Of a stretch of DNA of 42,679 bases, positions 16,829 to 42,612 are shown piece after piece (the first letter of the stretch is position 1; each line of letters opens with the position of its first letter). The DNA lies in the NCBI GenBank assembly GCA_013288285.1, contig JABDCE010000016.1:1-42679 (forward strand). Direction: 5' to 3'. The translations under genes and the position numbers were made by a program. Below the pieces are notes generated by a model that saw nothing but the letters and a program-made list of their open reading frames with translations, did not search any database and had not been told where the DNA came from. Source of the stretch: Bacteroidota bacterium (GTDB lineage: Bacteria > Bacteroidota > Bacteroidia > Chitinophagales > Chitinophagaceae).

Positions 16829-17614
16829 ATGATCCACAAACTATTCAACGACAAGCCGTCGCGGCTTTTGGTCATCCTTACCTCGTTCTTTGTTGCTAAT
16901 GCGCTGATAGCTGAGTGCATAGGCGGCAAGCTGTTTTCGCTGGAGCGTGTGCTTGGATGGACGCCCCATCCATTCACCCTGCTGGGCGAACACGGGCTCA
17001 CCTTTACCCTTACCTGCGGCGTGCTACTGTGGCCACTGGAGTTTATAATGACCGATGTGGTCAATGAATACTATGGCCCTAAGATCGTGAAGCGCATATC
17101 CTACATAGCCATCGCGCTTATCTGCTATGCATTCCTTATGTTTTACTTAGCCATACAGGTACCGGCAGATACCTCTTTCTGGGTGGGCAGCCAAAAGGAT
17201 AGCGGTGTGCCGGATATGCAGGCCGCTTTCTCCAATATCTTCGGGCAGGGCATGTGGATCATACTGGGTAGCCTCATCGCCTTCCTCGTGAGCCAGGTGG
17301 TAGACGTATGGATATTCCACAAAATTAAAAGAGTTACCGGGGAGAAGCATGTGTGGCTGCGGTCTACCGGCTCCACGATCGTATCGCAACTGGTAGATAG
17401 TTTTATAGTGTTGTTCATTGCGTTCAAGATAGGGAAGGGATGGTCTTACCAGCGCGTTTTTGCAATAGGCCTCGTCAACTATACCTACAAGTTCACAATG
17501 GCGGTAGTACTTACGCCGCTCATTTACTTTATAGAAAAAGGAATCAGCAATTACCTGGGGCATACAGTTACAGAAGAAATGAAACATGCGGCTATGGGTA
17601 AAGTGAATGAATAA
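16829..17614 (+). CDS. Queuosine precursor transporter (YhhQ/VUT family)
   Basis: 261 aa; VILTSFFVANALIAECIGGKLFS, WPLEFIMTDVVNEYYGPKIVKRISYIA, VSQVVDVWIFHKIK and RSTGSTIVSQLVDSFIVLFIAF. Confidence 0.88.
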   Translation: MIHKLFNDKPSRLLVILTSFFVANALIAECIGGKLFSLERVLGWTPHPFTLLGEHGLTFTLTCGVLLWPLEFIMTDVVNEYYGPKIVKRISYIAIALICYAFLMFYLAIQVPADTSFWVGSQKDSGVPDMQAAFSNIFGQGMWIILGSLIAFLVSQVVDVWIFHKIKRVTGEKHVWLRSTGSTIVSQLVDSFIVLFIAFKIGKGWSYQRVFAIGLVNYTYKFTMAVVLTPLIYFIEKGISNYLGHTVTEEMKHAAMGKVNE

Positions 17615-17630
17615 GACTACCCTGTCCACA

Positions 17631-17665
17631 AAAAGAAAACCCCTGAAAGTCAGGGGTTTTCTTTT
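17631..17665. terminator. Bidirectional rho-independent terminator between convergent genes
   Basis: Perfect 16-bp stem AAAAGAAAACCCCTGA-aag-TCAGGGGTTTTCTTTT. Confidence 0.9.
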
Positions 17666-17683: not shown

Positions 17684-20041
17684 TTATTCTTTGTCTTTTT
17701 TATGGCCACCTAAGCGGTATATCATAGAGAGCTGGAATGATGGGCTCCTGTATAGCTGGGTAGAAATGATCTTCTGCCCGGTAGTGCTGCCATTGTCCCA
17801 AACGGTCTGTACATCGCGGAAGTCGAACATGAGGTTAGGCGCTGCCTGGAAACCCGCACCCAATAGATAACCAAGGCCAAATCGCGAATTGAAATCCTCG
17901 TCTTTTATCTTGGCAGCATCATCGTTCTGTATGGTCTTCACCTGTGTGATCGTTGTTGGATCAGGATCTGGCGCTGCACCGGTATTGATAGCAAACGTGT
18001 ACACAAAGTTACCGCCTACGAAGAAATTGAAATTACCTGTACAGTAACGCACGGATATTGGCATTTCAATACTATGCAATGTGGAGAAGGTATAGTTGTT
18101 GCTGACCATTTCTCTTGTATAGCCTCCGCCGGTATTAGGCGTGTAGGTATAGTAGTTATCAGTAAGCGTGTAATCATTATTGATGCGGTGGAAATATTTC
18201 ACTTCCGCCATCACGTTCAGGTTATCGCTGAAGATAAAGTTACCCGCCAGCCCGAACTGGAATCCTTTAAAGCTGTTTGGCCCGAAGAAGGTGCCATTGA
18301 TACCGCCGGTGAGGCCCGGTGCAAAATGAGCGCCGTGTACTTTATCCTTTATATCGTTGAACGCAGCATGCAGATTTTCCATTGAATTATTGCCTTGCAT
18401 TTTCTTCACGGTCCTGGTATCTTTTGCATAAGCGCTGGTGTTAGTTACCTGGTTATCATCTGCATCATAAGGCGGTGGGCCAAAGGCAGGCGCGCTGGCC
18501 AGTTCATACTCTTCTATAACGGTCTCCATAGAGATCGTATCCAGGTGGAATTCTCCGGTGGTAGGCGAGGTCTTCACATAGTGCTGGCCCAGTATCAACC
18601 GCTGTACAGTACGCTGACCCTTGCGAGGTATCTTAGCTACAGGCTGGCTGGTAGTGCTGCCATTGGCGCCCACAGCCAAAGGCAACTTGCTGGCTGCAGG
18701 TTTCTTCGCCGCAGTTTTTGGAGCAGTAGTTTTCGGAGCAGCGGTCTTTGCAGCAGTTTTGTGTGCAGTTGCGGCCTTAGTTCCCACACCTGCGGTCGTT
18801 ACAAGTCCGGCATCAGCAATACCATCTGCATCAGGGCCTGGAATTGCTTTCGAGGCAGGAGTATTGTTTACAGCTAACGTATTATTGTTATTGTTTGCAA
18901 TAGCATTGGTATTCTTGTTCTTAGCAATAGATGTATGATGCTTTGTTGGTTTCGCATCCTGCTTGGTTAAAGCAGTTTTTGCTGTAGATGCAGGTGCGCC
19001 GCTGGCCAATGGAAGCGACTTCACATTGTCTTTCTTAGTTACATTATCTTTCTTAGCAGTTGACTGTTCAGGTTCCACTCCGGTATTCGTTGTTTTAGCC
19101 ACTGCTTCAATTGCTTTGGTATGACGTGTTGCAGCAGCTATTTTATGGTCCTTCTTAGTAACGGCGGTAGCTGTAGTAACGCCGGCAGTTGTCTGCCCTG
19201 TCGTTGTCCCGGCATCTATTGTTTTGGTATGAGGTGCTGCAGAGGCTATTTTATGATCCTTATGGGTAGCACGTGCTGTGGTAGCTGCAATTGCAGCAGT
19301 ACCGGTAGTTGTGTGCACATCAGCCTTAGCTATCTTGTCGACTGGCTTGCCATCTTCAACGCCTGTTACATCAGTTTTTGACACCAGGTTGTTCTTATGC
19401 GTTTTGCCTGCTGGTTTAGCAGTTGGTGCGTTGTCGCTTGCAGGTGTACTGTTAGCTGCAACCGCTGTAGACGTCTTGGCCGTTACAGTATTATCATCTG
19501 TGTTGTTATCGCCTGTATTGCTCTTTGGATGATGCTTTGTTGCCACTGCTGTGTGTTTGTGGCTTTCTTTCTGTTCGGTAGTTGTACCTGATGCGTATAT
19601 GTTAGTATTGTTGTCGTTAGTATTTTTTATGTTATTGTTATTTACCGGTGCAGTTCCGTTATTTTCTGTGGCTGCAGGGGCGTTATTGTTTGTAGTAGTG
19701 TTAGTATTGTTCACGCTTCCGGTATTATCAGCAACGGTGGTATTTGTAGTATTAGCTGACGATACAGTGCCTGAAACAGCAGCAATATCATTATTTATTC
19801 CATTGGCAGTTTTGTTTTTTGCAGAATACATTTCATATCCGCCCACACCTGCAGCCGATATCAGTAATAGCAATGCTAAAGCGCTGAGCGAACGACGCCA
19901 GTACATACCCGCGGGCCGCTGCGGCATTTCTTTATCAAGCATTTCACGCATACGCCCCCAGGAACCTGCCTGTTCCTGCTCCTCGCCTCCACCTAATCGC
20001 TGCCTTACGAGGTCATCGATGTTGATCAGATTTTTATCCAT
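17684..20041 (-). CDS. Single-TM protein with long low-complexity linker and C-terminal outer-membrane beta-barrel domain, adjacent to an ECF sigma factor
   Basis: 785 aa. Residues ~1-50 are cytoplasmic-like, ~51-69 are TM (SLSALALLLLISAAGVGGY), ~70-568 are a K/A/T/N/P-rich linker and ~569-785 form a barrel (FAPGLTGGINGTFFGPNSFKGFQFGLAGNFIFSDNLNVMAEVKYF...FQLSMIYRL). Confidence 0.8.
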   Translation of the reverse strand: MDKNLINIDDLVRQRLGGGEEQEQAGSWGRMREMLDKEMPQRPAGMYWRRSLSALALLLLISAAGVGGYEMYSAKNKTANGINNDIAAVSGTVSSANTTNTTVADNTGSVNNTNTTTNNNAPAATENNGTAPVNNNNIKNTNDNNTNIYASGTTTEQKESHKHTAVATKHHPKSNTGDNNTDDNTVTAKTSTAVAANSTPASDNAPTAKPAGKTHKNNLVSKTDVTGVEDGKPVDKIAKADVHTTTGTAAIAATTARATHKDHKIASAAPHTKTIDAGTTTGQTTAGVTTATAVTKKDHKIAAATRHTKAIEAVAKTTNTGVEPEQSTAKKDNVTKKDNVKSLPLASGAPASTAKTALTKQDAKPTKHHTSIAKNKNTNAIANNNNNTLAVNNTPASKAIPGPDADGIADAGLVTTAGVGTKAATAHKTAAKTAAPKTTAPKTAAKKPAASKLPLAVGANGSTTSQPVAKIPRKGQRTVQRLILGQHYVKTSPTTGEFHLDTISMETVIEEYELASAPAFGPPPYDADDNQVTNTSAYAKDTRTVKKMQGNNSMENLHAAFNDIKDKVHGAHFAPGLTGGINGTFFGPNSFKGFQFGLAGNFIFSDNLNVMAEVKYFHRINNDYTLTDNYYTYTPNTGGGYTREMVSNNYTFSTLHSIEMPISVRYCTGNFNFFVGGNFVYTFAINTGAAPDPDPTTITQVKTIQNDDAAKIKDEDFNSRFGLGYLLGAGFQAAPNLMFDFRDVQTVWDNGSTTGQKIISTQLYRSPSFQLSMIYRLGGHKKDKE
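19110..19278. repeat. Two-copy internal repeat, 108-bp period, inside the linker-coding region
   Basis: attgctttggtatgacgtgttgcagcagctattttatggtcctt (from 19110) versus attgttttggtatgaggtgctgcagaggctattttatgatcctt (from 19218). They encode KDHKIAAATRHTKAIEA and KDHKIASAAPHTKTIDA. Confidence 0.75.
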
Positions 20042-20087
20042 CTGGATAAATTTTAGTTTTTAAAAAATTATTCATTCAGTTCTTGCC

Positions 20088-20663
20088 CTACATTTTCAAA
20101 TGCAATTCCATTCTTTCTATCTTCTCCTTCAATATTCGCCTGCCTTCCGATAAATGCCACTTTGACGTTCCTTCACTTATTCCTATTAGATTACTAATTT
20201 CCTTGTGTGTAAAACCCTCCATCACATACATGTTAAATACATTTCTCGTAGCATCGGGCAGCTCCTGCACCAGTTTCAGCAGTTGGTCGTAATACAACTT
20301 CTCTGCATGACCGTTTTCCACGCTCTGGTCTTTCTCTACCAGCACCACATTATTTGCATAACGCGTATTTTGCTTCACATAGTCTGCCACGGCATGAAAA
20401 ACTATTTTTCGCAACCATCCTTCGAAAGAACCTTGAAAATTATACTGTCCTACTTTCTGAAACGCCCTTAAAAATCCATTGTTCAACACCTCTTCTGCCT
20501 GCTCACTATGATCTATATACCGCTTTACAAGCGCCATCATCCTCGGGTAAAACAGGTGATATAACTTCTCCTGTGCGCCACGCTCATTGCGTATGCACCC
20601 TTGAATGAGTTGCTCCAACTCACTGGCATGACCCGAAACAGTATATGCCAAAGCTATAGACAA
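20088..20663 (-). CDS. RNA polymerase sigma factor, ECF subfamily
   Basis: 191 aa; region 2-like GCIRNERGAQEKLYHLFYPRMMALVKRYI...AEEVLNNGFLRAFQKVGQYN...FEGWLRKIVFHAVADYVKQ and region 4-like LPDATRNVFNMYVMEGFTHKEISNLIGISEGTSKWHLSEGRRILKEKI. Confidence 0.9.
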   Translation of the reverse strand: MSIALAYTVSGHASELEQLIQGCIRNERGAQEKLYHLFYPRMMALVKRYIDHSEQAEEVLNNGFLRAFQKVGQYNFQGSFEGWLRKIVFHAVADYVKQNTRYANNVVLVEKDQSVENGHAEKLYYDQLLKLVQELPDATRNVFNMYVMEGFTHKEISNLIGISEGTSKWHLSEGRRILKEKIERMELHLKM

Positions 20664-20892
20664 GTGTATTGGTTATTAATACAAAACAATATAGTAGACT
20701 GTTTCATTTTCTAAATGGTTGGGTACTTTTTCCAATCATCATCTAAAATTAACGAATATTGGCTGTTTTATTGCATTTAGTTAATAAATCAAATGCGAAT
20801 TGTTACAATACCTAAATAGTGTTGGAAATGGAGACTAATCATTTAAATCACATCAGCACAAATAAGTTTTCAGAATAGTGTAATTTTAACTG

Positions 20893-30044: not shown

Positions 30045-31967
30045 ATGAACCGATCCTATAGCTACATATTACCTCCTATCATCTTAGCTATACTGCTTTG
30101 CTGCTGCAATGGTTTTGCCCAAAGCGTTTCCTTCAGCTATACCGGTTCTGTGCAAACCTACATCGTTCCAAAAGACGTTTCCAGTATTGCTATCGACATG
30201 TCGGGTGCGGCAGGCGGTTCTACGAGTATATCTGAAGGTGGCGCTGGTGGCCGTGTGCAATGTTCACTGGCGGTAACGCCCGGTGATGCGATTTATTTAT
30301 ACATGGGCGGTGCAGGACATAACTCTAAGAGCAATGGAGCAGCGGGAGGATATAATGGTGGTGGCGCGGGAAGCGAAGACGCGGGCGGCGGCGGCGGCGC
30401 TACCGATATTCGCTATCGCAGCACAGCGCTGTCAAACCGTGTGGTAGTGGCCGGTGGGGGCGGAGGCGCCTGCGGGCCCATTCTTGTTGCTGTGAGAAAT
30501 TACAACAGGGGTGGCAATGGCGGCGGCCTTACCGGAGAGATAGGTTATTACAATGGTGCAGCAAAAAAAACAGACACCACATACAACAAGCCGGGTAAGG
30601 GCGGCGATGGCTATTCAGATTACGTGGGTGGTGGCGGCGGCGGCGGTGGCTACCAAGGCGGTGCCGGTGGCAACGAAAGCGGCGGCAGTGGCGGGTCTTC
30701 TTATACCGATCCGTTACTCGCAACTTCAGTTATCCATACGCAGGGCTATAATGCGCACAGCAGCGGTGCACTCATCATCACACCGGTGATCGTTGCAAAA
30801 GAGCATACGGTACCCCAGCCCGCGCAGACAGTGCCTGAAAAAGCCGATAGCGTTTTCAAACCGCATGGCAGTGTCTATGGCTCTGTTTTCTTCGACTATA
30901 CGTACAAAGCACATGGTGATACCAGCCTGGGCGTAAGGAGCGCCAGGAGCCAGTATGCAGGGCTGCCAGCCAGTACCAGCATGTTTCAGTTCAGACGCAT
31001 TTATCTCGGTTATAACTACGAACTCAGTGAAAGATTTTCAACAGAATTTTTAATGTCTGCGGAAGATGATTATAGCTTACCGGTAAATAGCTATACAGGC
31101 GATCTGCTGAAGGATAATAAATTCGCACCGTTCATTAAGCTCGCCAACCTGCGCTGGAAAAATATTTTTAACGGCACAGACCTCGTGATAGGACAGCAAT
31201 ATACCCCGGCCTTCCACTATACCTCAGAAGCTGTTTTTGCATACCGTGATGTGCAGCGCACCATAGCCGATGTATACCATACCCCCGAGGCAGACATGGG
31301 CATAGCATTGCAGGGACATTTGTTGTCCGATAATAATTTCGGCTATCACCTGATGGTGGGCAATGGCAGTGGGGCAATACCTGCAAGCAGCACCTATAAG
31401 TGGTTCTATGCCGATGTGAATTATAAATTCTTTGACCAGAGATTGATGGTGGACCTGTATGCAGATTATAAACGCCTGGCGTGGACCGCCGACTGGCACA
31501 GCGACAGGCAGATGAGTAAACTGTTCATTGCCTATACTGTGCCTCGCTTCACGATAGGTTTCGAATCCTTCATCAACACGCTGCGCAACGATGACATAGC
31601 AACAAAATGGACCGGCGATCTCGATACCATCGATACCAAACGAATTGCATTCTCCCTGTTCGCACATGTTTCCATCTACACAGACAAGCTAAGCATACTT
31701 GTCAGCTACAACAATTATAATACAGGGGGAACAAACAACAATGCCGTTTACAGAGAGTACGACAGCCAATCTATTTATTACGACCAATGTACCCGCCAGC
31801 AACTAGTAACGGTTGCAGTCGACTATGCTCCCGCGAAAAACATCCACATCATACCTAACGTGATGTACAACCATTATGTCAACATCACCCCTGCCGATTA
31901 CGGCAGCGACAATACGGGCTATGACCTTATTTACCGCCTTACTCTGGCATACCAGCTTACCCGCTAA
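30045..31967 (+). CDS. Secreted glycine-rich (ALK-type polyglycine) domain fused to a porin-like beta-barrel, paralog A
   Basis: 640 aa with a signal peptide. The Gly-rich domain has GGGGGATDIRYRSTALSNRVVVAGGGGGACG; the porin-like C-terminus has FQFRRIYLGYNYELSERFSTEFLMSAEDDYSLP...FAPFIKLANLRWKN...LVIGQQYTPAF...LTLAYQLTR. Confidence 0.85.
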   Translation: MNRSYSYILPPIILAILLCCCNGFAQSVSFSYTGSVQTYIVPKDVSSIAIDMSGAAGGSTSISEGGAGGRVQCSLAVTPGDAIYLYMGGAGHNSKSNGAAGGYNGGGAGSEDAGGGGGATDIRYRSTALSNRVVVAGGGGGACGPILVAVRNYNRGGNGGGLTGEIGYYNGAAKKTDTTYNKPGKGGDGYSDYVGGGGGGGGYQGGAGGNESGGSGGSSYTDPLLATSVIHTQGYNAHSSGALIITPVIVAKEHTVPQPAQTVPEKADSVFKPHGSVYGSVFFDYTYKAHGDTSLGVRSARSQYAGLPASTSMFQFRRIYLGYNYELSERFSTEFLMSAEDDYSLPVNSYTGDLLKDNKFAPFIKLANLRWKNIFNGTDLVIGQQYTPAFHYTSEAVFAYRDVQRTIADVYHTPEADMGIALQGHLLSDNNFGYHLMVGNGSGAIPASSTYKWFYADVNYKFFDQRLMVDLYADYKRLAWTADWHSDRQMSKLFIAYTVPRFTIGFESFINTLRNDDIATKWTGDLDTIDTKRIAFSLFAHVSIYTDKLSILVSYNNYNTGGTNNNAVYREYDSQSIYYDQCTRQQLVTVAVDYAPAKNIHIIPNVMYNHYVNITPADYGSDNTGYDLIYRLTLAYQLTR

Positions 31968-32153
31968 CTTTTCTGTTTGCTACATTTACGCATAGGCAAT
32001 GCATTGTCACGGAAATATCATTTATATATTTTTAATTTATAGAATAACAAGTAAATAACTGCTTTGCTTATCAATTGTATATATTTTCGACAATTATTTA
32101 GTGCATTAATTGCACAAAATGAGGTTATTACACGCCGCGCAAATTGTCATCTT

Positions 32154-34127
32154 ATGAGTAAAAACTACCTTCTACCCCTGATTTTACTGTCTTCTATATG
32201 TAGCATTAATGTAGTTGCTCAGCCGGTTACTTTTAGTTACACCGGCAGGATACAAACTTACCTCGTCCCTAAAGATGTTACCAGCCTGGCTATCGACATG
32301 CAGGGTGCCTCAGGCGGCGCTGCCAATTATTCAAGAGGCGGCAATGGCGGCAGGTTACAATGCGCATTGACAGTGACGCCGGGTACAATACTTTATTTCA
32401 ATATAGGCGGCAGCGGATCTGCATCCACAACCATGGGAGCAAGAGGTGGCTACAATGGCGGCGGCACAGGTAGTGAAGACGGCGGTGGCGGTGGTGGCGC
32501 TTCAGATATACGCTATGGCGGCAGTGCCTTGGCAAATCGCGTGGTAGTAGCTGGTGGCGGTGGTGGCGCATGTGGTGCAGCATCGGTAACAGTTAAGAAC
32601 TATACCAGGGGTGGTGATGGCGGCAGCCCGGTGGGCGAATCAGGCTACAGTAACGGGAAGAGTGGGGCAGCCGATAATTATTATGCAGGCATAGGCGGCG
32701 CCAATACCTTTATGAGATACAACGATATACGGAGCGGAGCCGCAGGCAAAGGCGGTGACGGCTATGGTAATTATGCAGGCGGTGGTGGTGGCGGCGGCGG
32801 CTACTTCGGCGGCAATGGTGGCGACGAGAATGGAGGCGGCGGCGGCGGCTCGTATACCGACCCTGTACTGGCAACATCAGTGGTACACACACGCGGATTT
32901 AATGCCGGCGGCAACGGAGCAATGACCATTGAACCCGTATTGGCGGTGGTCGTTCAGCAACATGAGATTCTGGCAACGGATAAGCAAGCCGACGCTGATA
33001 AAATATTTGTACCCCATGGCACACTCTATGGTTCTGCTTTCAGCGACTTTGCATACAAGTCCCATGCCGACACTGTGCTGGAAGGCAGAAGCGGCATCAG
33101 CCAGTATTCCAAAGTTGCAGCAGGTACCAGCCAGTTCCAGTTCCGCCGCATCCACATCGGTTATAATTACGACATCAGCCAGCGGTTTTCCACTGAGTTC
33201 CTGCTGGCCGCTGAAGACGATTATAACCAGCCCTTAAATAATTCAGCCGGTGATCTGCTGGCAAATGGCAAGTTCGCGCCATTCATTAAACTCGCAAACC
33301 TGCGCTGGAAAAATGTATTCAAAGGCGCCGACATCGTTATCGGGCAGCAATATACGCCGGCATTTCACGCTACTACAGAAGAGGCCTGGGCTTACCGCTC
33401 CATCGCACGCACACTCACCGACATCTACCGCACAAATGAATACGACATGGGTATATCCATACAGGGTCATCTGCCCACTAATGACAATTTCGGATACAAC
33501 CTGATGGTAGGCAACGGATCGGGAGCTATGCCGGAAGCCAATGCATTCAAATGGTTCTACGGAGATGTGTACTATAAATTCCTGGACAAAAGGATGATCG
33601 TAGACTTCTTTGCCGATTATGAAAAGTTAACCTGGACATCTACCTGGCACCGCGACCGCCAGATGAACAAGATACTGGTAGCTTATTCAGTGCCTAAATA
33701 CACTATTGGCGTAGAAGCATTTGTAAACCGCCTCATGGCCGATGATATTGCTACCCGCGTTGATGGCGTCACTATAGATACTATCACTACAAAAAGGGCT
33801 GCCGTGTCTGTTTTTGTGCATGGCCGCATCTATGGAGAGAAGTTAGGCTTCTTCGCCCGCTACGACCAGTACGACTGGGGTGCAAACAACAGCAATGCCA
33901 ACGCCGTTTTCGCGTCTCATAACGAACAGACCAACTACTACGACCACAATACCAAGCAGGAAATGGCCACCTTGGGGCTCGATTTCTGCCCATATACCAA
34001 TGTGCACATTATGCCCAATCTGTGGTACAATTATTATGAGAACACGACTACCACTAATCTCGGCACAAACAATGTAGGGTACGACCTTGTATACCGCCTA
34101 ACGGTATCGTATAAGTTCACTAAATAA
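32154..34127 (+). CDS. Secreted glycine-rich (ALK-type polyglycine) domain fused to a porin-like beta-barrel, paralog B
   Basis: Likely start MSKNYLLPL at 32154. Same architecture as paralog A: GGGGGASDIRYGGSALANRVVVAGGGGGACG, then FQFRRIHIGYNYDISQRFSTEFLLAAEDDYNQP. Confidence 0.85.
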   Translation: MSKNYLLPLILLSSICSINVVAQPVTFSYTGRIQTYLVPKDVTSLAIDMQGASGGAANYSRGGNGGRLQCALTVTPGTILYFNIGGSGSASTTMGARGGYNGGGTGSEDGGGGGGASDIRYGGSALANRVVVAGGGGGACGAASVTVKNYTRGGDGGSPVGESGYSNGKSGAADNYYAGIGGANTFMRYNDIRSGAAGKGGDGYGNYAGGGGGGGGYFGGNGGDENGGGGGGSYTDPVLATSVVHTRGFNAGGNGAMTIEPVLAVVVQQHEILATDKQADADKIFVPHGTLYGSAFSDFAYKSHADTVLEGRSGISQYSKVAAGTSQFQFRRIHIGYNYDISQRFSTEFLLAAEDDYNQPLNNSAGDLLANGKFAPFIKLANLRWKNVFKGADIVIGQQYTPAFHATTEEAWAYRSIARTLTDIYRTNEYDMGISIQGHLPTNDNFGYNLMVGNGSGAMPEANAFKWFYGDVYYKFLDKRMIVDFFADYEKLTWTSTWHRDRQMNKILVAYSVPKYTIGVEAFVNRLMADDIATRVDGVTIDTITTKRAAVSVFVHGRIYGEKLGFFARYDQYDWGANNSNANAVFASHNEQTNYYDHNTKQEMATLGLDFCPYTNVHIMPNLWYNYYENTTTTNLGTNNVGYDLVYRLTVSYKFTK

Positions 34128-34836: not shown

Positions 34837-35199
34837 CTACGGGATAAACTTTCTCAGCACAAGATAAGCAACAACAATGAGCAATAATACAACTGCTATT
34901 GCCACCAGGGTAAACTGGCTGGTTTGTAATGGCCGGCGTTTATGTTTCTTCGCCTGTATTGTTTTACGCAGCTTATGATTCAGTTTGTTTACCGCCGCCT
35001 TTGTCTCCGTAGGTGCCAGCCCCCGCAGCCCTTCCATGGCGTCGCTCTCCATCCCCTCTTCAGCTATCCACTTTTCCACCTCATGTTGATCACCTTCCGG
35101 CAGCTTTCCTTCCAGCCACGCCATCAGCTTATCTTCAGAGAGTTTCCCTGCTTCGTCATTGCCGGGGCCGGGGCGCAATATGTCGTTTGTTTCACTCAT
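34837..35199 (-). CDS. Putative anti-sigma-like single-TM protein
   Basis: 120 aa; LSEDKLMAWLEGKLPEGDQHEVEKWIAEEGMESDAMEGL with a C-terminal TM helix. It overlaps the upstream sigma gene stop by 4 bp. Confidence 0.65.
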   Translation of the reverse strand: MSETNDILRPGPGNDEAGKLSEDKLMAWLEGKLPEGDQHEVEKWIAEEGMESDAMEGLRGLAPTETKAAVNKLNHKLRKTIQAKKHKRRPLQTSQFTLVAIAVVLLLIVVAYLVLRKFIP

Positions 35200-35765
35200 A
35201 GCCGCGTACCCGTTTTCTTTAATAAAATCGTTTTCAAATTACGTTTACCATTTTGTATAAAACTTTTCACTTGCATAAAAGTATAGCCCGTCTCTGCTAT
35301 TATCCGCTCGTAGCTATACCTGCGCAGATAGAAAAGCACGATCGCTTTTCTTTGTTCTTCATTCAGCAGTTCTATCGCACCGGTCATTTGCTCCAGTGTA
35401 TGTTCCTGCCATTTTATTTCTTCCTTGTCCGTTTCCGCCGCTGACAGTTCAGCAACCGCCGCCTCATCCGCAAATGGCGTTTTATCACGTAGCTGCTGCA
35501 GGCAATGGTTGCGCATCAGTATATACAGCCACCCCTTAAAGTTAAGTATATCTTCCTGCGGAAAATGTGTCAGCACTTTTAAGAACACTTGCTGCACAGC
35601 GTCTTCCGCCAGCGTTCTGTCTTTCAGGTATTTCAGCCCCACGCCAAACAGCAGTGCCGTGTATCGCTGCAGCAGGTACCCCAGCCATTGGTTGTCACCG
35701 CTCACCTTGTAGGCCCGCTGTAGCTCCTCATCTGTTTGGGTAGTATGGTTGGTATGTCCCAGCAA
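35196..35765 (-). CDS. RNA polymerase sigma factor, ECF/sigma-70 family
   Basis: 189 aa; YLLQRYTALLFGVGLKYLKDRTLAEDAVQQVFLKVLTHFPQEDILNFKGWLYILMRNHCLQQLRD and LLNEEQRKAIVLFYLRRYSYERIIAETGYTFMQVKSFIQNGKRNLKTIL. Confidence 0.88.
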   Translation of the reverse strand: MLGHTNHTTQTDEELQRAYKVSGDNQWLGYLLQRYTALLFGVGLKYLKDRTLAEDAVQQVFLKVLTHFPQEDILNFKGWLYILMRNHCLQQLRDKTPFADEAAVAELSAAETDKEEIKWQEHTLEQMTGAIELLNEEQRKAIVLFYLRRYSYERIIAETGYTFMQVKSFIQNGKRNLKTILLKKTGTRL

Positions 35766-38875: not shown

Positions 38876-41140
38876 CTATCGGATCAGTATCACATCGCCC
38901 TTGCTCTCTTCTACCCTGCCTGTCAGGCACTGACCCTTGAAGTAAAAAAAGTAAGTGCCTATATCACACGGCAGGCCTTTGAATTTTCCCGTCCAGTATG
39001 CCTCCGGGTCAAAGGTCTCGAATACCATCTGCCCCCAACGGTTAAAGATCATCAGGTGGTAGTTCATCATATTGCCAAAGGTGATCACCTTGAACCCATC
39101 GTTCTTACCATCCCCGTTGGGCGTGAACGCATTGGGATAGGAGAAGGTGCAGCAGTACTCTATATTCTTATAGCTCGCATAGGTCGAATCTGTGCAGCCA
39201 TATTCATCAGTTACATTCAGTTGTATCGTTGTGGGCACCAGCACACGTATATATAGCCTGCCGGTAACCGAGTCGTTGAGTATCTCATTTTGTGGCGACC
39301 ATACATAGGTCACTCCGCCCGCACCTGCCAGGTATATCGTATCTCCCAAACAAATGGTAGGCGGTATGCTGATGATCTGTGCAGCCGGCAACGCATGTAC
39401 CGTAGCTATAACTGGCACATACCCCGATGAGCATACTCTATACTGCTCTGTAAAGAACCACGTTTGTGTGCCCACTTTTTTAGTATTCGGCACAGGCGCA
39501 AAATAGGCCGGCGATAGATTGAGGTTGTACCAGTTAATAAGAGCGCCCGGCCTTATTGGCTCCACATCTATCACGCTGTCTGGCACGTCTATACAGTAAT
39601 TCCTGATTATCGGGGCCAGTGGCAGTGTGCCACTGTCCTTCACCGTGTATGTCTGCGTTGCCGCGCACAAGGTATCAGAGCTCACAATAGCGATAAAAAC
39701 ACCAACTGGCAGACTATCCCTTACCACCCCAGTGGTATCTATATAACTTTTGTAGAGTGCGCTCCCCTCCATTACATTCAGCGTTCTCGGCGGGAATCCG
39801 TACTTTATATCATACTCTACATAGGCGTCATGTACACACTCGGTAGACAACAGGGTCTGGATCGACAATTGCGGCACGCTTGCTATATTGATCGTATAGG
39901 CGATCGTTTGTTTATCCTCTATCGGGCAATGGTCTGTTTGCAGGGTCAGGTAAAAAGTATAAATGCCAGAGGGTACACTGCCCGTCACCCACTCAAACGA
40001 GGCGCTGGGTGTAGGCGTGTTATTGCCACCTATATTCAGCGTCGATGCGCCCGGTAGGGTACTGTTACTCAGGGTTATATCAGATCCCTCCGGATTCGAG
40101 AACCCCAGGTCGAACCTCAGGTTGGACGTGCCCACGCATATATTGATCACATTGTTGCCGGTCACGCGTCCCGTCGACACATCCTGCAGAGTCACGGCTG
40201 GAGGTGTATTATTACAGTTGTTCAGCACCACAAACGTCATCTCCCTTTCGCTTGTTCCTATCAGCACACCCTTCCTGTATTCCGATACGCGGCACACCAC
40301 CAGTGCATCCTGTACAACGTCCGGGGTAAAGGTCACCTGCCCGTTCAGCGGGTCGAACAGGAAGTTACCCACCGCGGTAGATACCGGCTTGGATCCGGTG
40401 AACGGGCTGCGGTAATTGACCGATGAGCCGCCATTCGCATCGATAGCATTCACCAGCTCAAAGGCCAGTGAATCTCCGTCCGGGTCTATCGCTCCCTGGC
40501 TATATTGTTCCAGTTGATTGATACAGTAAAATGGTGTAGGCACTGCTGAGTATACCGGCGATGAGTTATTGCCTGTACTGTCGTTCAGGTCGGCCTCTAT
40601 TTGCATCACGGTTGTTCCTGCGTTCAGTACGTTCGTTATATGGTTGCTGCGTCCCGCCTGTATCGATCCCAGGCCGCCCATGTTCCCGCCAAAAATAAAT
40701 TGCCAGTCCAGCGATTTTTCGGGCAGGATGATCGTATCCGAATACACGAATTTTTTCACACCAGGCAGCGTGCCACCGTTACACGAGGTATTGTGCAGTT
40801 GTGCCGGGCATACTGGCGATACTTCCAACCCCAGCAATGTTGCTTTCAGTGTGATAGACCCATAATACAGGCCGCTATTATAAACATCTACTATGGGGGC
40901 AGCAGAGTACAGCGAATGGAATATGGCGCTGTCTGCCGAACAGTCCCCATAAACGGTAAGCGTCACCAGGTACTTATTGGCCGATACATAAGTATACAGC
41001 AGCTCGCCCCCGTATATATGGGTAGCTGAGCTGCGGTAGCTCCCGGCCACGCACAGCAACAATAGCAGTAACCTGTATAATTTTCTGCTCACTTGAATAA
41101 GGTACTTATTTATAAAACAGGTAAAACCTTTATCTGACAA
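38876..41140 (-). CDS. Large secreted protein with gliding-motility-associated (CHU/T9SS type B) C-terminal domain, paralog A
   Basis: 754 aa; signal peptide, C-terminal YCCTFSYPNAFTPNGDGKNDGFKVITFGNMMNYHLMIFNRWGQMVFETFDPEAYWTGKFKGLPCDIGTYFFYFKGQCLTG. Confidence 0.9.
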   Translation of the reverse strand: MSDKGFTCFINKYLIQVSRKLYRLLLLLLCVAGSYRSSATHIYGGELLYTYVSANKYLVTLTVYGDCSADSAIFHSLYSAAPIVDVYNSGLYYGSITLKATLLGLEVSPVCPAQLHNTSCNGGTLPGVKKFVYSDTIILPEKSLDWQFIFGGNMGGLGSIQAGRSNHITNVLNAGTTVMQIEADLNDSTGNNSSPVYSAVPTPFYCINQLEQYSQGAIDPDGDSLAFELVNAIDANGGSSVNYRSPFTGSKPVSTAVGNFLFDPLNGQVTFTPDVVQDALVVCRVSEYRKGVLIGTSEREMTFVVLNNCNNTPPAVTLQDVSTGRVTGNNVINICVGTSNLRFDLGFSNPEGSDITLSNSTLPGASTLNIGGNNTPTPSASFEWVTGSVPSGIYTFYLTLQTDHCPIEDKQTIAYTINIASVPQLSIQTLLSTECVHDAYVEYDIKYGFPPRTLNVMEGSALYKSYIDTTGVVRDSLPVGVFIAIVSSDTLCAATQTYTVKDSGTLPLAPIIRNYCIDVPDSVIDVEPIRPGALINWYNLNLSPAYFAPVPNTKKVGTQTWFFTEQYRVCSSGYVPVIATVHALPAAQIISIPPTICLGDTIYLAGAGGVTYVWSPQNEILNDSVTGRLYIRVLVPTTIQLNVTDEYGCTDSTYASYKNIEYCCTFSYPNAFTPNGDGKNDGFKVITFGNMMNYHLMIFNRWGQMVFETFDPEAYWTGKFKGLPCDIGTYFFYFKGQCLTGRVEESKGDVILIR

Positions 41141-41192
41141 ATCTCGCGCATATTCTTACATGCTACACAGAATCTTTTCTACGTGCCTGCCG

Positions 41193-42612
41193 TCAGCGTA
41201 TCAGTATCACATCGCCCTTATGCTCTTCCGTCCTTCCCGTCAGGCACTGCCCCTTGAAGTAAAAATAATAGGTGCCTATATCACACGGCAGCCCGTTGAA
41301 TTTCCCCGTCCAGTAGGCCTCAGGGTCCATGGTCTCAAACACCATATTCCCCCACCGGTTAAAGATCATCAGGTGGTAGCTCATCATGTTGCCAAAGTTC
41401 AGCACCTTGAACCCATCGTTCTTCCCATCCCCGTTCGGCGTGAAAGCGTTAGGGTAGGAGAACGTACAGCAGTACTCTATATTCTTATAGCTGGCATAAG
41501 TAGAATCCGTACAACCATATTGGTCCGTCACATTCAGTTGTATAGTTGTAGGTACCAGCACGCGTATATACAGCCTGCCGGTAACAGAGTCATTGAATAT
41601 CTCATTTTGTGGTGACCATACATAGGTCACTCCCCCGGCACCCGCCAGGTATATCGTATCTCCCAAACAGATAGTAGGCGGTATGCTGATGATCTTCGCG
41701 TCTGGCAATGCATGTATCGTAGCTATGGCCGGCACATATCCCGACGAGCATATCTTATATTGCTCTGTAAAGAACCAAGCCTGGGTGCCTACTTTTTTTG
41801 TATTCGGCACAGGCGCGTAGTAAGCCGGCGAAAGGTTGAAGTTGTACCAGGTAATAATAGCGCCCGGCCCCAGCGGACCCACATCTATTGCGCTGTCTGG
41901 TACGTCTATACAATAGCTCCTGGTCACGGGGCTCAGTGGCAGCGATCCGCTGTCCTTTACGCTGTACACACGTGTTGCCGCACATAAAGGGTCAGAGCTC
42001 ACCACAAAGTTGAAAAGTCCATAAGGCAGGCTATCTCTGATGACTCCTGTACTGTCCGTATAGATTTTAAAAATGGCTCCGGTGCTGTCCGTTATCGTCA
42101 GTGTCCTCGGCAGGTAACCATATTTCAGGTCATACTCTACGTAGGCGTCATGTATGCACTGGGTAGGGGCCAGTGTAGTGATAGCCAGTGAAGGTATTGG
42201 CGTAATGTTGATAGTATAGGCTATCGTCTGCTTATCCTGTATCGGGCAATGGTCTGTCTGCAGCGTCAGGTAGAAAGTATATACTCCGGCAGGCACACTC
42301 CCGGTCGCCCAGCTAAAACTTCCAGACGGGCTCATTCCGGGATTACCGGTGATGTTCAGCGTTGATGAGCCCGGCAGTATGCTGCTGGTCAGCGTTATAT
42401 CGTCATTGCCCGGATTGGTGAATGCCAGGTCGAACGACAGATTGGGTGTGCCTATGCATATATTCACATCGTTTAGGCCGGTGATAGTGCCGCCCGACAC
42501 ATTTTGCATGGTCACCGCAGGTGGCGTATTCGTGCAGTTGTTCAGCACTACAAAGGTCATCTCCCTTTCGCTCGTTCCTATCAGCACACCCTTCCTGTAT
42601 TCCGATACTTCA
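41193..42612 (-). CDS. Gliding-motility-associated C-terminal domain protein, paralog B, truncated at its N-terminal end near the right window edge
   Basis: Same C-terminal domain (FSYPNAFTPNGDGKNDGFKVLNFGNMMSYHLMIFNRWGNMVFETMDPEAYWTG). Homology with paralog A extends upstream to ...VSEYRKGVLIGTSEREMTF, and the frame then hits TAA at about 42615. Confidence 0.82.

Follow-up and report, generated by a model that had tools for sequence, protein, structure and literature searches.

A probable envelope-spanning sigma/anti-sigma operon of the Dma/Reo type in Chitinophagales, with a conserved promoter motif and a possible tie to type IX secretion

The window analysed here is a 42,679-nucleotide stretch of DNA from a bacterium of the order Chitinophagales, whose genome is estimated to be about 58% complete. 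A gene for an ECF sigma factor is followed, after 46 nt and on the same strand, by an open reading frame for a protein of 785 residues (Table 1), which confirms the gene order that a sequence-only reading of this DNA had proposed. The sigma protein matches both Pfam regions above their cut-offs (4.7e-11 for Sigma70_r2 and 8.6e-12 for Sigma70_r4_2) and scores 82 bits against the NCBIfam model TIGR02985, below the cut-off of 126.4. The TTG start and the N-terminus, LSIALAY, are kept across its orthologs. Neither a FecR domain nor a TonB-dependent receptor was found beside the sigma gene by Pfam or by reading of the neighbours, which consist of the gene for the barrel protein and a convergently oriented gene for a membrane protein. 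The inverted repeat past the end of the 785-residue gene is probably a terminator common to this gene and the convergent gene at 16829-17614, judging from its sequence; it was absent from the output of a simple terminator scan.

Table 1. Features of the locus, and proteins of other orders that carry the same kind of head
Feature	Position	Strand	Basis or members
ECF sigma factor gene	20088..20663	(-)	191 aa, TTG start; Sigma70_r2 and Sigma70_r4_2 matches
Predicted Dma/Reo-like envelope-spanning anti-sigma factor gene	17684..20041	(-)	785 aa; ORF reading, architecture kept in orthologs
Cytoplasmic head, residues 1-48 (predicted sigma-binding domain)	19898..20041	(-)	Alignment of 40 sequences; AlphaFold helices 9-17 and 27-38
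TM helix, residues 51-69	19835..19891	(-)	Hydropathy peak; AlphaFold long helix 45-89
Low-complexity periplasmic linker, residues 70-571	18329..19834	(-)	Composition; AlphaFold hairpin 480-507 and helix ~553-570
Outer-membrane beta-barrel, residues 572-776, ~11 predicted strands	17714..18328	(-)	AlphaFold pLDDT mostly >90; Foldseek
ECF-type promoter ACCCAACC-N17-GTCT of the sigma/anti-sigma operon	20696..20724	(-)	Alignment of ortholog upstream regions
Inverted repeat AAAACCCCTGA-aag-TCAGGGGTTTT	17636..17665	(.)	Read from sequence; candidate terminator shared with the convergent gene
CHU_C-ended head-TM proteins, other orders			L368, L371, L375, L383, L385, L389, L395, L405, L407
Tandem-head PorP/SprF proteins, other orders			L414, L415, L416, L417, L419

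The window protein has no family match in Pfam or NCBIfam, and no curated anti-sigma model in these collections matches it. Its head is strongly conserved, and D9, W28, M31 and L35 are invariant among the 40 aligned sequences. The two helices in the AlphaFold model of the head come with low overall confidence (pTM 0.36). The only hydrophobic peak of the whole protein is the predicted TM helix (Kyte-Doolittle 1.78). It is followed by a linker of about 500 residues, the larger part of which (residues 70-480) is of low complexity and rich in T, A, N and K. AlphaFold confidence is low over most of the modelled end of the linker, where a short beta-hairpin and a helix precede the barrel. The earlier description of the protein as head, TM helix, linker and barrel holds for all the parts, with small revisions of the extents: the barrel occupies approximately residues 572-776 and the hairpin at 480-507 lies in front of it.

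The fold of the C-terminal part is that of an outer-membrane (OM) beta-barrel, and the suspicion that this domain might not belong in a membrane was not borne out. The AlphaFold model of residues 479-785, built with 65 aligned sequences, is a barrel with a mean pLDDT of 83.6 and a pTM of 0.66. The solved structures that Foldseek matched to it at E<=0.001 are OM beta-barrels and one designed transmembrane barrel, led by Ail, OmpA, NspA, OmpX and OmpW (E-values from 1e-5 to 2e-4). Furthermore, the Pfam family OMP_b-brl_2 is present in 16 of 41 homologs of the protein.

The pairing of the two genes is conserved. The named relatives within the genus of the window genome are Flavipsychrobacter; Taibaiella is the next closest, and the other relatives belong to Chitinophagales. 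A search of 24 genus relatives found one-to-one orthologs of the sigma factor, 78-87% identical, in almost every one, and all 20 genus loci examined have the same architecture downstream, in proteins of 690-1036 residues. In a wider scan of named genomes the pair was present in about 70 of 73 loci, a few of which are truncated where a contig stops; two very distant matches and one contig end stand out as clear exceptions. Because the adjacency is kept in both sets, it is not a chance arrangement, and homologs that lack the sigma neighbour, which could have spoken against the sequence-only reading, are the exception. The comparison genomes are mostly metagenome bins. Close orthologs of the downstream protein vary in length from 659 to 1036 residues, and wider relatives from 438 to 1046. 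Head-TM proteins, many of them barrel-ended, are also encoded downstream of the paralogous sigma groups that these genomes contain and of the best matches in other families of the order. A head profile, iterated once, recognizes this kind of head next to sigma genes throughout the class Bacteroidia, and every unrelated frame among 1,200 background ORFs had an E-value of at least 0.3.

All 19 aligned orthologs share both boxes of the sequence ACCCAACC-N17-GTCT unchanged upstream of the sigma gene, whereas most of the flanking intergenic DNA differs among them. The window contains a single match to it, which is the sigma promoter, against 0.03 expected. ECF promoters characteristically have AAC in the -35 box and GTC in the -10 box. 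The motif has this appearance, so the operon is most likely self-regulating, as judged from the sequence of its upstream region. Upstream of the paralogous sigma group 2 of several genomes (L051, L053, L054, L057) there is a different candidate promoter, in which CTAACATTT or CTAACGTTT is followed by CGTC. Since this paralogous group bears a different -35 element, CTAACATTT, the ACCCAACC motif is not common to ECF promoters of the genus in general.

The promoter motif leads to a list of predicted target genes. With a spacer of 16 to 18 nt (ACCCAACC-N16..18-GTCT) there are 120 matches in 26 genomes of the genus, summed over the tabulated genomes, a threefold excess over the 39 matches of the reversed pattern; a control with a scrambled -35 box gave 19. 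Sixteen genomes of the order that lack an ortholog of the sigma factor show no such excess (13 matches, compared to 18 for the control). Of 83 sites examined, not counting the sigma factor's own promoter, 55 have the start of an ORF of 100 residues or more no farther than 130 nt away, and a simple rule assigns a signal peptide to 51 of the 55 ORFs. Such ORFs are found at 51/83 motif sites and at 0/19 control sites (Fisher p 5e-7, with orthologous sites not being independent of each other). Of the 19 control sites, 18 lie inside genes, compared to 24 of the 83 motif sites. The assignment of a gene to this regulon is a motif match, and another ECF sigma factor could share the motif.

The predicted targets are large surface proteins with Ig-like, NHL, SBBP or PKD domains, lipoproteins, a PorP/SprF protein, and exported proteins outside the type IX secretion system (T9SS). 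Among the 65 proteins downstream of the motif, many of which are incomplete, 14 contain the T9SS sorting domain TIGR04183 and 3 contain CHU_C. T9SS sorting domains are very common in the genus, numbering from 111 to at least 148 per genome, and the T9SS cargo among the targets is only suggestive for this reason. The PorP/SprF ortholog occurs in 20 genus relatives: in 18 of them the motif is directly upstream, in some as ACCCAACT, and in the remaining two the PorP gene is repeated in tandem and the motif precedes the first copy. The motif also stands before the sigma gene itself, before PorP and before genes for exported proteins in records of other genera. Apart from PorP, no core T9SS component turned up in the set of predicted targets. 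The idea that this PorP heads a porKLMN operon was discarded, as by eye the neighbours in the loci inspected are unlike porKLMN genes.

In three genomes (L097, L136, L159) a second conserved ECF sigma gene has the ACCCAACC promoter 183-188 nt upstream of it, hinting at a possible sigma cascade. In Taibaiella lutea (L300) the motif precedes an apparent housekeeping sigma factor gene.

Elsewhere in the class, in orders other than Chitinophagales, the genes that follow related sigma genes encode the same kind of head and TM helix with a different C-terminal end. Nine of these sigma-adjacent proteins end in CHU_C, a T9SS type B sorting domain, which scores above the Pfam cut-off; before it come a head, a TM helix and a linker, often with PKD repeats. 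By its sequence, such a protein is a candidate for a membrane-anchored anti-sigma factor that bears an export signal. Five others have three to five tandem anti-sigma-like heads, one TM helix, a linker and a C-terminal PorP/SprF domain (E-values from 2e-16 to 6e-24). A third variant has the head and the TM helix with a short tail alone. Once iterated, the head profile recognizes almost every T9SS-linked variant, with the exception of L375 (E-values calculated for a set of 14 sequences), and brings fusions to T9SS modules to light in these orders. No description of head-CHU_C or head-PorP/SprF fusions was found in a literature search that covered few subscription papers. The promoter of PorP and the T9SS-module fusions together suggest that this anti-sigma family may be connected with type IX secretion, which is plausible.

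The overall architecture has been described before. Dma proteins consist of an N-terminal anti-sigma domain, a TM helix, a long disordered tether and a C-terminal barrel, and are encoded beside an ECF21 sigma factor (PMC13088901). Dma1 and Dma2 with Das1 and Das2 of Bacteroides thetaiotaomicron are treated in that paper, which cites Pardue et al. 2024 PNAS. The window protein resembles Dma in its single TM helix after the head, in its long low-complexity tether (residues 70-480), in its predicted terminal OM barrel, and in the position of its gene next to an ECF sigma gene in a member of the Bacteroidota. The window head is a conserved element of 48 residues found beside sigma genes, matches no curated anti-sigma model, and is likened to Dma by layout. 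Deletion of dma2 raises das2 (PMC13088901), and the sigma factor's own promoter in the window predicts a comparable self-induction. Unlike the published Dma systems, the pair in the window belongs to Chitinophagales, and its predicted regulon comprises exported proteins with PorP/SprF, whereas the Dma regulons comprise vesiculation and polysaccharide loci.

EcfO-Reo of Bacteroides fragilis and Phocaeicola vulgatus likewise has a sigma gene followed by a gene for an OM-barrel anti-sigma factor (PMC9308784, PMC13114119). P. vulgatus Reo has a Dma-like layout, is induced by OM-damaging toxins, and its disruption frees the sigma factor; EcfO is self-induced (PMC9308784) and is derepressed by an insertion in the Reo gene. 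The known targets of the Reo system are NigD lipoproteins and O-antigen length, and no T9SS link is described in the available text of the two papers. Genetics in Bacteroides and Phocaeicola shows that a Dma/Reo-type protein restrains its sigma factor (PMC13088901, PMC9308784, PMC13114119). The match to this class supports the earlier proposal of one chain running from the inner to the outer membrane with its head placed to hold the sigma factor. It also supports the view that one protein takes the place of the relay of FecR and TonB receptor. Like the FecI-FecR-TonB receptor relay, the pair would carry OM information to an ECF sigma factor, but with one protein instead of three and with no FecR domain or TonB receptor at the window locus.

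ECF sigma factors have been connected to type IX secretion by other routes. SigP of Porphyromonas gingivalis controls T9SS genes and itself, and is activated by the response regulator PorX, with no dual-membrane anti-sigma factor described in the available text (PMC7712824). The adjacent envelope-spanning protein suggests that control of the window sigma factor differs from the control of SigP by PorX. The SM6 regulon of Flavobacterium psychrophilum has ECF-type promoters before T9SS genes and one sigma/anti-sigma pair; unlike the predicted regulon of the window sigma factor, its targets are the core T9SS genes GldN and PorU. The accessible text gives the -10 CGT box alone for the SM6 promoter, and leaves the architecture of the anti-sigma factor undescribed (PMC9723704). 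The sigma/anti-sigma architecture itself is already known from Dma and EcfO-Reo; what the present analysis adds is the promoter motif, a predicted set of target genes and a possible connection to type IX secretion.

The domain layout, the barrel fold, the conserved pairing, the conserved promoter and the bias towards exported proteins are computed results. They are best accommodated by a two-gene, self-regulated operon of the Dma/Reo type, a reading in which we have considerable confidence. We infer, by analogy, that the head binds the ECF sigma factor at the inner membrane and represses it. The chain would cross the periplasm, and its C-terminal barrel, as modelled, would be inserted in the OM. 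What triggers the system and how the sigma factor is let go are purely conjectural: a disturbance or change of state of the OM, for example a failed or altered barrel insertion, might be passed to the head, and the sigma factor would then be released, probably by proteolysis of an unfolded or TM part. Once free, it would transcribe its own operon and genes for exported proteins through ACCCAACC-N16..18-GTCT; T9SS cargo and PorP/SprF, a protein of type IX secretion, would be among these predicted targets.

It was a concern of the sequence-only reading that residues 51-69 might be a cleaved signal peptide. The protein would then be a plain OM protein that stands beside a sigma gene by coincidence, as its ordinary barrel fold might suggest. 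This is most improbable, because the segment is preceded by 48 conserved residues that include the four invariant positions; the recurrence of the head profile beside sigma genes across Bacteroidia, with no unrelated ORF scoring better than E 0.3, also speaks against it. The same reading had offered a sensor of envelope distance or of OM state. A single chain anchored at both ends could in principle gauge the gap between the membranes, but a ruler should be of fixed length, and the chain ranges from about 660 to 1036 residues within the genus and still more widely beyond it. Moreover, an unstructured linker of hundreds of residues far exceeds the width of the periplasm and would be slack. The distance model is rejected on these two grounds and has very little chance of being correct; a sensor of OM state is the best reading of the protein's role, by analogy with Reo.

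The state that is sensed might be that of type IX secretion. The barrel would read PorP occupancy or surface cargo and the sigma factor would adjust the supply of PorP and cargo, a feedback akin in purpose to PorXY-SigP. The PorP/SprF and cargo genes among the predicted targets favour such surveillance, as do the fusions of the head to CHU_C or PorP/SprF in other orders and the precedents from P. gingivalis and F. psychrophilum, where ECF sigma factors are tied to T9SS genes (PMC7712824, PMC9723704). However, lipoproteins and non-T9SS exported proteins are also targets, no core T9SS gene except PorP is among those predicted, and a contact between barrel and T9SS is purely hypothetical. Surveillance of this kind is a possibility to which we give only limited credence. 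The predicted Dma/Reo-type operon extends that design to free-living Chitinophagales, and offers a testable tie between an OM-anchored anti-sigma factor and the T9SS. A still broader and rather doubtful proposal is that Bacteroidia share a family in which one sigma-binding head with its TM helix is mounted on interchangeable OM modules (a plain barrel, CHU_C, or PorP/SprF behind three to five heads). These would act as direct wires from the OM and its T9SS to transcription, and the window pair would be a feedback loop matching the synthesis of PorP and surface cargo to export capacity.

The window contains a second ECF sigma gene, on the minus strand. The genes at 34837-35199 and 35196-35765 are arranged as a sigma gene followed by one for a 120-residue protein with a C-terminal TM helix, which is likely a conventional tail-anchored anti-sigma factor. 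By eye, two adjoining paralogs on the plus strand at 30045-34127 each combine a glycine-rich N-terminal domain with a porin-like C-terminal part. Two neighbouring genes on the minus strand at 38876-42587 have nearly alike C-terminal halves and end, also by eye, in gliding-type (CHU_C-like) T9SS sorting domains; this pair looks like a tandem duplication.
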